Shown: piece by piece, positions 44,931 to 47,910 of the stretch
Layout of the letters: every line of letters begins with the position of its first letter
Position numbering within the stretch: the stretch's first letter is position 1
Assembly (NCBI RefSeq): GCF_014644455.1
Contig: NZ_BMKS01000006.1
Location: 62,001-126,000 of the forward strand
Source: Caldovatus sediminis
GTDB lineage: Bacteria > Pseudomonadota > Alphaproteobacteria > Acetobacterales > Acetobacteraceae
DNA: 64,000 nt
Direction of reading: 5' to 3'
Translations under genes and position numbers: made by a program
The notes under the pieces: model-generated
Seen by the model: only the letters and a program-made list of their open reading frames with translations
What the model was told of the DNA's origin: nothing
Database searches by the model: none

Positions 44931-45005
44931 TGGAGCGGGCGATGGGAATCGAACCCACGACATTCAGCTTGGGAAGCTGACGTTCTACCTCTGAACTACG
45001 CCCGC
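44931..45005 (-). tRNA. tRNA-Gly (anticodon CCC)
   Basis: A complete 75-base cloverleaf on the minus strand. The acceptor stem is GCGGGCG/CGCCCGC, discriminator T, and CCA is encoded. D-arm GTTC/GAAC, anticodon stem TCAGC/GCTGA with loop TTCCCAA giving CCC, a 5-base variable loop, and T-arm GTGGG/CCCAT with loop TTCGATT (one G-T pair). It decodes GGG, a codon of some use in this GC-rich genome. Confidence 0.96.
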
Positions 45006-45167
45006 ATTCCGAGCGGGAAGAGTTAGCGCGGGGCGCCCGGAGCGGCAAGCGCCGGGCGCGGCGGCGGTCGCCACGCCGGCCGTTCCCGAGCCGGCGGCGC
45101 GGCGGCCCGCCTCCCGCCGCGCCCCGGTCCGGCCGGCCCCATGCCTGGCGAAGCCGGGCGCGCTCCC

Positions 45168-45195
45168 TTGCCGGCCACCGCGCCTCGGGCTAGAG
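45168..45195 (+). promoter_or_regulatory. Probable metZ promoter
   Basis: TTGCCG (45168-45173), a 16-base spacer and CTAGAG (45190-45195). Transcription from here would start about 25 bases before the SAM-II aptamer. The -10 and spacing equal those before purH. Confidence 0.5.
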
Positions 45196-45230
45196 GGCGC
45201 CCATCGTTCCGCCCGCGCCGGGCGGGGCGG

Positions 45231-45289
45231 CGCTCGCGATTTGTCCGGCCAGCTTGCGGCGAGCCTAAACAAGCGCGCTAAACGGCCGC
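45231..45289 (+). ncRNA. SAM-II riboswitch aptamer upstream of metZ
   Basis: An H-type pseudoknot of the SAM-II class. P1 is a perfect 6-bp stem GCTCGC (45232-45237) / GCGAGC (45259-45264). Its loop starts GATTTG, close to the consensus GATTTAA, and contains CGGCC (45246-45250). This pairs with GGCCG (45284-45288) to form the pseudoknot. TTGC precedes the 3' side of P1 and the invariant-type GCTAAA lies at 45277-45282. SAM-II RNAs control methionine genes, commonly metZ, metA or metX, in alphaproteobacteria by sensing S-adenosylmethionine. The pseudoknot is about 66 bases from the metZ ATG, so it does not cover the ribosome site itself. A GC-rich hairpin follows at once. Confidence 0.87.
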
Positions 45290-45324
45290 GGGGCGCGCCC
45301 TGGCGCGTCCCCGACCGCGAGGGG
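45290..45324 (+). promoter_or_regulatory. Expression platform with mutually exclusive hairpins
   Basis: GGGGCGCGCC (45290-45299) can fold on GGCGCGTCCCC (45302-45312, one bulged T). The same CCCC (45309-45312) can instead pair with GGGG (45321-45324). The first hairpin directly adjoins the SAM-II pseudoknot. No T-tract follows, so a simple intrinsic terminator is unlikely. Confidence 0.45.
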
Positions 45325-45354
45325 CCGGAATTCCGTTCCGAAGGTCCCCCGCCC

Positions 45355-46548
45355 ATGGCCAAGCCCCGCAGCGACCGCACGCTCCGCCCCGCCACGCTCC
45401 TCGTCCGCGGCGGACAGATGCGCAGCGGCTTCGACGAGACGGCGGAGGCGCTCTACCTCACCTCCGGCTTCGTCTACGCCAGCGCCGCGCAGGCCGAGGC
45501 GACCTTCGCCGGGACCGAGCGGCACTACCAGTACTCGCGCTTCGGCAACCCGACGGTGACGATGCTCGAGGAGCGGCTGGCGCTGCTCGAGGGCGCGGAG
45601 GCCTGCCGCGCCACCGCGACGGGCATGGCGGCGGTGCACGCCGCGCTGCTCTCCCACCTCAAGGCCGGCGACCGGGTGGTGGCGAGCCGGGCGCTGTTCG
45701 GCTCCTGCCACTGGATCGTCTCCACCCTGCTGCCGCGCTACGGCATCGCGGGCGAGTTCGTGGACGGCGCCGACCTCGCGCAATGGGAGCGCGCGCTGAG
45801 CCGCCCGGCGAGCCTCGTGCTGCTCGAGACGCCCTCCAACCCGATGCTCGAGATCGTGGACCTGCGCGCGGTCTGCGCGCTGGCGCACCGGGCGGGCGCG
45901 CTGGTGGTGGCGGACAACGTGTTCGCGACGCCGCTCCTGCAGCGCCCGATGGAGTTCGGCGCCGACATCGTCGTCTATTCCGCGACCAAGCACTTCGACG
46001 GGCAGGGGCGCGTGCTCGGCGGCGCGGTCCTCGGGCCGCGGAAGTGGGTCGAGGACACGCTGCAGCCCTTCCTCCGCAACACCGGCCCCTCGATCTCGCC
46101 CTTCAACGCCTGGGTGATCCTGAAGGGACTGGAGACGCTGCCGGCCCGGCTCTCCGCCATGTGCCGCTCGGCCGCGGCGGTGGCGGACTTCCTCGCCGGG
46201 CGGCGCGAGGTCGCGCGCGTGCTCTATCCCTTCCGCGCCGACCACCCGCAGCAGAAGCTCGCCATGGCGCAGATGCGCGCCGGCGGCACGGTCGTCACCT
46301 TCGAGCTGAAGGGCGGCAAGGAGGCCGCGTTCCGCGTGCTCGACGCGCTGCGGCTGATCGACATCTCGAACAACCTCGGCGACGCGAAGAGCCTGGTGAC
46401 GCATCCGGCGACGACGACGCACATGCGCATCGGGGCGGAGGAGCGGGCGCGCCTCGGCATCACCGACGGCACGGTGCGGCTCTCGGTCGGGCTCGAGGAC
46501 GTGGCGGACCTCATCGAGGACCTCGCGGCGGCGCTCGACGCGCTCTGA
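45355..46548 (+). CDS. metZ: O-succinylhomoserine sulfhydrylase
   Basis: PLP enzyme of 397 residues that makes homocysteine from O-succinyl- or O-acetylhomoserine and sulfide. Seen: QYSRFGNPTVTMLEERLALLEG, Asp187 (ALVVADNVFATP) and the PLP Lys212 in VYSATKHFDGQGRVLGG. The C-terminal GDAKSLVTHPATTTHMR and LSVGLEDVADL are typical of the Cys/Met metabolism family. The combination KHFDGQGRVLGGAVLG and the SAM-II leader favour MetZ over cystathionine lyases. The ATG has a GAAGG ribosome site 10 bases upstream. Expression should fall when S-adenosylmethionine is abundant. Confidence 0.93.
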   Translation: MAKPRSDRTLRPATLLVRGGQMRSGFDETAEALYLTSGFVYASAAQAEATFAGTERHYQYSRFGNPTVTMLEERLALLEGAEACRATATGMAAVHAALLSHLKAGDRVVASRALFGSCHWIVSTLLPRYGIAGEFVDGADLAQWERALSRPASLVLLETPSNPMLEIVDLRAVCALAHRAGALVVADNVFATPLLQRPMEFGADIVVYSATKHFDGQGRVLGGAVLGPRKWVEDTLQPFLRNTGPSISPFNAWVILKGLETLPARLSAMCRSAAAVADFLAGRREVARVLYPFRADHPQQKLAMAQMRAGGTVVTFELKGGKEAAFRVLDALRLIDISNNLGDAKSLVTHPATTTHMRIGAEERARLGITDGTVRLSVGLEDVADLIEDLAAALDAL

Positions 46549-46569: not shown

Positions 46570-46591
46570 GGCCGGCCGTCGGGGGCCGGCC
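46570..46591 (+). terminator. Hairpin after metZ
   Basis: Two copies of GGCCGGCC separated by GTCGGG can form an 8-bp stem. The DNA is also a 12-base direct repeat (GGCCGGCCGTCG at 46570 and 46584). It starts 21 bases after the metZ stop, without a T-tract. Confidence 0.5.
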
Positions 46592-46651
46592 GTCGAGGGG
46601 TGTGGACAGGCCCGGTCCGGCCGCCGACTATCCCCCCTCGGAAGGAACGCC

Positions 46652-47119
46652 ATGGCGAAACCACCGCCCGACCCACCGCCGGGCCCGCGCGGCGCGCGCC
46701 CGGGCGCCGGCCGTCAGGACGCCTTTGCGGAGACGACGCGCGGCATCCGCGTGACCGTGCGCGCCTTCTACCTGGCCGACCAGTCGCAGCCCGAGCGGGG
46801 CCACCATGTCTGGGCCTACCGCGTAACGATCGAGAACCTCGGTACGGAGACGGTGCAGCTCCTGCGCCGGACCTGGCACATCACCGACGGGCTCGGCCGC
46901 ACCCAGGTCGTGCACGGCGCCGGCGTGGTGGGCGAGCAGCCGGTTCTCGAGCCGGGCGAGAGCTTCGAGTACACCTCCGGCACGCCGCTCCCGACGCCCT
47001 CGGGCTTCATGCGCGGGCACTATCACATGGTCGTGACCGGCACCGGCGAGGCCTTCGACGTCGTCATCCCGGCCTTCAGCCTCGACAGTCCCCACCTTCC
47101 CTCGGGACAGGTCCATTGA
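46652..47119 (+). CDS. apaG: ApaG protein with an extended N-terminus
   Basis: ApaG of 155 residues; the family is usually near 125. The core from [36 protein letters not shown] through [30 protein letters not shown] is fully typical of this fibronectin-III-like fold. The first 25 residues are Pro/Gly/Arg-rich and extra. A good GGAAGGA ribosome site 6 bases before the ATG supports the long start. ApaG's role is unclear; in E. coli it is linked to cobalt tolerance and lies with apaH. Here it lies between metZ and folE on the same strand. Confidence 0.92.
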
Positions 47120-47153
47120 GCCGGGAGCACAGCGGCCAGGCCGGGCGCGATGG

Positions 47154-47180
47154 TTGCCGAGCCGTGGCGACACCTTATCT
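47154..47180 (+). promoter_or_regulatory. Possible folE promoter
   Basis: TTGCCG (47154-47159), a 15-base spacer and TTATCT (47175-47180) in the only A/T-richer part of the 150-base gap before folE. Spacer is short, so confidence is low. Confidence 0.3.
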
Positions 47181-47271
47181 CAGTTCGACCGACCGGGACC
47201 GAGCCGGGGGCGAACGGTGCCACGGCGGGCCGCCGCAACGGGGGCCCACGCCTTTGGGGACATCCGAGACC

Positions 47272-47910
47272 GTGAACATCCAGACCTTCCCGGCCGCGCC
47301 GTTCCGCGCCGAGCCCGCCGCGGACCGCCCGAGCCGCGAGGCGGCCGAGGCCGCCGTGCGCACCCTGATCCGCTGGGCCGGCGACGACCCGGACCGCGAG
47401 GGGCTGCGCGACACCCCCGCCCGCGTGGTGCGCGCCTTCGAGGAGTTCTTCTCGGGCTACGACGAGGATCCCGTCGCCCTCCTCGCCCGCTCCTTCGAGG
47501 AGACGGAGGGCTACGACGAGATGGTGGTGCTGCGCGACATCCGGCTGGAGAGCCACTGCGAGCACCACATGGTCCCGATCATCGGCCGCGCGCACGTCGC
47601 CTACCTGCCGGCGGGGCGGGTGGTCGGCATCTCCAAGCTCGCCCGCGTGGTCGAGGCCTACGCCAAGCGGCTGCAGATCCAGGAGAAGCTGACCGCGCAG
47701 ATCGCCAACACCATCCAGGACGTGCTCCAGCCCAAGGGCGTCGCGGTGGTGATCGAGGCGGCGCACCAGTGCATGACCACGCGCGGCGTCCACAAGCACG
47801 GCGTGAGCATGGTCACCAGCCGCATGCTCGGCGCCTTCCGCGACGACCCGAGCACGCGGCGGGAGTTCCTCGCCATGATCGGCGGCCAGCGCTGGCAGGT
47901 GGAGGGCTGA
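47272..47910 (+). CDS. folE: GTP cyclohydrolase I (type IA)
   Basis: FolE of 212 residues, first step of tetrahydrofolate synthesis: GTP to 7,8-dihydroneopterin triphosphate. Zinc ligands Cys96 and His99 (ESHCEHHM) and Cys167 ([12 protein letters not shown]) are present, as are [41 protein letters not shown] and the C-terminal [11 protein letters not shown]. The start is a GTG giving [11 protein letters not shown]; an in-frame TTG six codons upstream is possible. A hairpin covers the stop codon and the next gene is convergent. Confidence 0.96.

Follow-up and report, generated by a model that had tools for sequence, protein, structure and literature searches.

A SAM-II aptamer ahead of metZ in Caldovatus sediminis, with comparative evidence suggesting an indirect, long-range route to the ribosome site

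How can a pseudoknot riboswitch govern a start codon that it does not reach? The SAM-II riboswitch, small and familiar from textbooks, has been studied in structural detail. In the window, by which we mean the whole 64,000-nt stretch of the Caldovatus sediminis genome that was analysed, a SAM-II aptamer lies directly ahead of metZ, and 66 nt separate the end of its P2 helix (45288) from the ATG at 45355, as the preliminary description had estimated. The covariance search with the SAM-II model that had been proposed there as a check gave a match to RF00521 that scored 56 bits, the cut-off being 36, with E 7e-10 for the window, and the gene behind it matches TIGR01325, so that the identification of a SAM-II riboswitch ahead of metZ holds. 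The 6-bp P1, GATTTG, TTGC, GCTAAA and the 5-bp pseudoknot were all read at positions of the kind described. The features of the aptamer and its gene are as follows.

45168 to 45195, + strand: promoter-like pair TTGCCG, 16 nt, CTAGAG, about 36 nt ahead of P1 (by eye).
45223 to 45301, + strand: SAM-II riboswitch match (RF00521), Rfam covariance model (cmscan).
45232 to 45264, + strand: P1, 6 bp, 45232-45237 with 45259-45264 (sequence reading and cmscan).
45238 to 45243, + strand: loop start GATTTG (sequence reading).
45244 to 45250, + strand: loop strand UCCGGCC (sequence reading; conservation and pairing in relatives).
45246 to 45250, + strand: P2a, the 5' strand of P2, inside the loop strand UCCGGCC (sequence reading).
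45254 to 45257, + strand: TTGC (sequence reading).
45277 to 45282, + strand: GCTAAA (sequence reading).
45284 to 45288, + strand: P2 3' strand, 5 bp with 45246-45250 (sequence reading and cmscan).
45355 to 46548, + strand: metZ, O-succinylhomoserine sulfhydrylase (TIGR01325, 574 bits).

With P1, the GATTTG loop start, the P2 pseudoknot and GCTAAA all present, and a methionine/SAM synthesis gene downstream on the same strand (metZ at 45355), the window leader is a genuine, complete SAM-II aptamer; binding of SAM by this copy is to be expected from its class membership. At E<=0.001 it is the single RF00521 match in the 4.8 Mb assembly (43 contigs, 98.55% complete). The closest named MetZ is that of Caldovatus aquaticus (95% identical), and the NCBI taxonomy places Caldovatus in the Roseomonadaceae, Acetobacterales.

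A strict sigma-70 consensus scan of the window leader returned no promoter. By eye, a promoter-like pair stands some 30-40 nt ahead of P1 in the window and in its relatives: a CTTG box was seen in all 18 relatives inspected, and in most of them a plausible second box is similarly placed. For the Gluconobacter oxydans leader, the available part of PMC5756330 reports a start site 17 nt ahead of the Rfam match. Taken together, this start site and the promoter-like pair make a transcription start downstream of 45260 unlikely in the window. After metZ, on the same strand (46583-47910), come apaG and an ORF that by eye resembles GTP cyclohydrolase I, and it is possible that the three form an operon under the riboswitch. 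On the opposite (-) strand a tRNA-Gly (44934-45005) lies at most about 230 nt upstream of the aptamer. Nine relatives were scanned for this neighbour, and seven of them also carry a tRNA-Gly within about 230 nt upstream (L112, L113, L143, L146, L151, L161 and L174), with the anticodon CCC where ARAGORN called it; in L120 it lies about 1 kb from the aptamer, and none was found in L156.

We then compared the leader with those of its relatives, the surveyed family corresponding, by record names, to the Acetobacteraceae in the wide sense. Among 200 genomes of this broad family, RF00521 matched at E<=0.001 in 167 and above the cut-off in 141, and a class-wide search gave a match in 207 of 387 genomes. 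An earlier survey of about 200 genomes, in the part of PMC4239095 available to us, lists SAM_alpha solely in Rhizobiales and Rhodobacterales, the Rhodospirillales examined there being nine genomes. Our collection of 192 loci (the window included, some regions fetched twice, three unparsed) yielded 189 metZ leaders, 171 of them unique and most of these from the same broad family. Over the 171 unique leaders CGCTAAA and the start codon are 43 to 180 nt apart, with a median of 87, the window having 79; the minimum of 43 comes from a start-codon misassignment in L042, whose start was later set by hand. A long gap between P2 and the start codon is normal among the relatives, and the downstream platform, which had been called unusual, has a spacing typical of them. 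Removal of 43 near-duplicates left 128 nonredundant leaders, of which two lack a recognised Shine-Dalgarno sequence (SD), leaving 126, and a further 23 lack the core motif discussed below, leaving 103. A Roseomonas-like subset of 90 leaders was chosen by the P2 3' strand, with L039, L042 and L046 excluded by hand; 51 of the 90 are less than 80% identical.

The survey also contains longer aptamers, defined by a span of over 45 nt between GATTTG and CGCTAAA, in 61 of the 171 unique and 35 of the 128 nonredundant leaders (for example L059-L067 and many named loci such as L114-L142). In those inspected, the extra hairpins mostly follow the P1 3' strand and precede the A-rich stretch ahead of GCTAAA; L058 has its extra hairpin in the first loop. 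At its cut-off Rfam found none of nine longer-aptamer leaders and all of three compact ones, so annotation can miss the longer form.

By what route, then, might SAM binding reach metZ? P2 ends at 45288 and the SD lies at 45341-45344; P2 therefore cannot cover the ribosome site, and direct occlusion by P2 is ruled out by distance. We also rejected an intrinsic terminator for this leader, as a scan of 45010-45420 found no terminator-like site, meaning a stable hairpin with a U-tract ahead of the start codon. The platform of the window, common to its relatives, is neither of the direct-occlusion type nor an intrinsic terminator. The preliminary description had argued for a mechanism other than direct masking of the ribosome site, and this stands insofar as P2 cannot cover the site; masking of that site is still the likely output, albeit by an indirect path. 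The features of the spacer on which this reading draws are listed here.

45289 to 45313, + strand: hairpin H1, 10 bp with U45308 bulged (predicted minimum-energy fold).
45317 to 45352, + strand: predicted hairpin over the SD, 45321-45326 with 45343-45348 (minimum-energy fold; family support).
45323 to 45329, + strand: distal element GGCCGGA, the complement of 45244-45250, lying within the 5' arm of the hairpin predicted over the SD.
45341 to 45344, + strand: Shine-Dalgarno AAGG, whose GG pairs with CC 45325-45326 in the predicted fold.

The window spacer, taken from P2 to the start codon, is predicted to be more stable than 100 dinucleotide shuffles of it (z -3.0, or -2.99 to two decimals), and over the 128 nonredundant leaders the mean z is -1.36. 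H1 is not in competition with P2, and the two Caldovatus leaders, compared from P1 to the start codon, differ in the H1 loop letters alone, flanking bases apart. A 10-bp hairpin had been described at 45290-45312: the hairpin is indeed predicted, with its ten pairs extending over 45289-45313 around the bulged U45308, and 45290-45312 alone holds 9 bp. A switch by exchange between H1 (45290-45312) and a second helix, CCCC 45309-45312 with GGGG 45321-45324, has in its favour that this CCCC is common to both helices and can pair as had been proposed; the minimum-energy fold, however, lacks the second helix and pairs 45321-45326 with 45343-45348 instead, and for this reason we rejected the exchange as the switch. 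Furthermore, the counterpart helix in L036, L044, L052 and L156 uses a strand of its own and forms alongside H1, and nothing links the exchange to any strand altered by SAM binding. We consider it very improbable that these two mutually exclusive pairings constitute the switch; a competition between the pairing of 45244-45250 with 45323-45329 and the SD hairpin is better supported.

The evidence for that pairing comes from the one conserved block of the spacer. Outside this block, which reads GGCCGGAC in many relatives and GGCCGGA in the window, the spacer of the Roseomonas-like leaders is divergent; the mean column entropy over the 51 Roseomonas-like leaders is 0.45 in the GGCCGGAC block versus 1.55 in the rest of the spacer. 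For its eight columns in turn, pairing with GUCCGGCC of the aptamer is possible in 43, 51, 51, 50, 50, 48, 47 and 49 of the 51 leaders. In the window seven of the eight pairs can form (UCCGGCC 45244-45250 with GGCCGGA 45323-45329), a match that taken alone is not significant (p 0.21). When the best complementary site of each leader was set against dinucleotide shuffles, p<=0.05 was reached in 57 of the 90 Roseomonas-like leaders and 9 of the 81 others, and in the first complementarity scan the best site lay elsewhere in the spacer for many leaders outside the subset. The element also fits its own P2a better than swapped ones: in the 30 family leaders with a P2a other than CCGGCC, z is -3.6 against -0.7 for a reversed decoy (kinship uncorrected). 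Over all 128 leaders the same comparison gives z -5.9, with the reversed decoy at -4.2 (permutation, kinship uncorrected), so base composition explains part of this signal. L053 and L190 show a correlated change: their P2a (GTCGGCC) is shorter by one base, and their distal element is without its CGGAC part. RNAalifold on a MAFFT alignment of 90 leaders gave essentially no consensus fold, probably owing to the wide sequence divergence of the hairpins.

The distal element also belongs to the hairpin predicted over the ribosome site. All seven of its bases are paired in the predicted SD hairpin of the window, and a hairpin that pairs the SD, as sequestor/antisequestor control requires, is present there as a prediction. 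Of the 126 nonredundant leaders with a recognised SD, 106 have a predicted fold that pairs two or more nucleotides of the SD core. The SD partner falls at +2 to +11 from the element start in 74 of the 103 core-motif leaders versus 26.0 in shuffles (z 11.5), the core-motif pattern being complementary to P2a and these 103 leaders hence selected on that property. At position core+6 the pairs of the core-motif leaders are AU (33), GC (15), CG (15), GU (3) and UA (1), a variety which means that both sides change. In L089, a leader without the core motif, the SD is masked by a different sequence in the predicted fold.

Comparison with relatives thus suggests a SAM-II switch that lowers metZ translation at plentiful SAM by an indirect long-range route, and this is the reading we favour, with modest confidence. 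Without SAM, UCCGGCC (45244-45250) would pair with GGCCGGA (45323-45329), dismantling the hairpin at 45317-45352 and exposing the SD at 45341-45344. With SAM bound, P2a would be locked in the pseudoknot with 45284-45288 and the distal element freed, allowing the hairpin to close over the SD and initiation to drop. H1 (45289-45313) would bridge part of the distance without competing. In such a scheme P2a would be contested by the pseudoknot and the long-range pairing, and the distal element by the long-range pairing and the SD hairpin. The SAM-free pairing, and the direction and size of its effect, are what we infer here.

Folding calculations in which the element was held speak to this scheme with mixed results. 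The ribosome footprint (-17 to +12) costs 17.0 kcal/mol to open in the free window leader, 10.7 with the element held and 17.7 with other 8-mers held, and the corresponding means over 105 leaders are 12.1, 10.4 and 12.1 kcal/mol (P 5e-8), the footprint being the third definition tried, after two narrow SD measures. Holding the element changed the footprint cost by more than 0.5 kcal/mol downwards in 63 of the 105 leaders and upwards in 21. By the first narrow SD measure the opening cost in the window rose from 1.5 to 5.2 kcal/mol, the opposite of what was expected; in a narrow SD window the probability of being unpaired in this leader went from 0.55 to 0.54, that is, no opening. Across the family the gain by the narrow measure is small: the unpaired probability goes from 0.34 to 0.41, against 0.36 in the control, with 52 of 103 leaders rising and 22 falling. 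Simple energies for the SAM-free state favour the masked form, by a median of +5.0 kcal/mol and by +8.9 in the window (pseudoknot terms excluded); folding during transcription may decide over such energies, yet they are a genuine weakness of the scheme.

Simple energies put the masked state first whether or not SAM is present, which would also suit an aptamer that serves as a roadblock or stabiliser, the pseudoknot and H1 acting on mRNA life or ribosome loading while the spacer hairpins are constitutive and exchange no pairings. The SAM-II leaders of Sinorhizobium meliloti, according to the available part of PMC9373788, stabilise their mRNAs at high SAM, which lends this alternative some precedent. 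It leaves unexplained, however, why the most conserved spacer block of the Roseomonas-like subset is complementary to P2a and why the fit is to the leader's own P2a over swapped ones, and we regard it as improbable.

The wider class supplies a second comparison. The preliminary description took direct masking of the ribosome site as the norm for SAM-II, which is only half the picture: terminators are the commonest platform of alphaproteobacterial SAM-II, according to the portion of PMC2258182 at hand. A hairpin with a T-run was found in 50 of 66 leaders of other Alphaproteobacteria versus 7 of 128 family leaders, the outside-family sample (70 loci fetched, 66 parsed, four unparsed) being biased to high-scoring matches and scanned for 130 nt past P2 regardless of the start, the family leaders up to the start codon. 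In the 50 outside-family leaders the 3' arm of the terminator fits its own rather than a swapped P2a (z -4.7, decoy -1.1; kinship uncorrected), as in CCGATC with GATCGG (three leaders) or CCGGTC with GACCGG (one leader).

Could SAM binding therefore cause premature termination in the leader, through Rho or a hairpin without a classic U-tract, with metZ translation not the primary target? Beyond the prevalence of terminators elsewhere (50 of 66), RNA-seq of G. oxydans 621H shows coverage of the SAM-II leader 20-fold that of the metZ ORF, which the authors, in the available part of PMC5756330, read as termination; a terminator/antiterminator structure has been predicted for that leader, as cited in the same part of PMC5756330, and masked ribosome sites can provoke Rho termination, as stated in the accessible text of PMC9373788. 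Uneven coverage, however, could also come from decay of untranslated mRNA, and the scan found no terminator-like site in the window leader, and a hairpin with T-run in 7 of 128 leaders of the family. Moreover, the excess of SD pairing beside the element (74 against 26.0 expected among 103 leaders) would be needless for a purely transcriptional switch. We judge termination as the primary output to be unlikely, though a stronger contender than the roadblock; translational masking and Rho termination may both hold.

The long-range translational scheme can be placed among known systems. The intrinsic-terminator type of SAM-II (SAM_alpha, RF00521) shares aptamer and gene class with the window, and its 3' arm tends to complement its own P2a; in the window, by contrast, a U-tract is absent and the element lies in the 5' arm of the SD hairpin. 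The metX SAM-II (crystal 2QWY), for which direct occlusion is described in the available part of PMC10907184, has the same pseudoknot aptamer and a proposed translational output, but there the ribosome site lies inside P2, whereas the window SD starts 53 nt past the P2 end and would be reached via a second pairing. In the S. meliloti metA SAM-II (PMC9373788, available part), as in the window, the start codon is far from the aptamer, and translation is controlled, as is proposed for the window; there the SD is located within the riboswitch and acts on an AUG 74 nt downstream, while the window SD is near its own AUG and in its own hairpin. Sequestor/antisequestor riboswitches of the translational kind follow the same logic, in that the ligand removes the antisequestor and a sequestor hairpin masks the site (PMC2258182, in the portion at hand); the putative antisequestor strand of the window lies in the P1 loop, where it forms the 5' side of the pseudoknot, and is not an outer P1 strand. 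In the titles and abstract openings returned by full-text searches of the open-access literature we found no anti-sequestor of this kind for SAM-II, and the terminator-type form of the distal-partner idea may already be in print. Effects of SAM-II on gene expression were unstudied before 2022, according to the available text of PMC9373788.

These comparisons lead to a broader proposal, to which we give about even chances: in alphaproteobacterial SAM-II, P2a would have two competing 3' partners, the P2 3' strand and a second, distal version of that strand. Most lineages would carry this copy within an intrinsic terminator; in the acetic-acid-bacterial/Roseomonas group it would have become the 5' arm of an SD hairpin, with the U-tract lost, the output translational and the sensor unchanged. 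If this distal-partner model is true, one rule would cover the terminator and translational members alike, and a leader would be seen to switch its output while keeping the complementary strand. The picture of SAM-II as a direct blocker of the ribosome site would then be unfit for a large group of bacteria.
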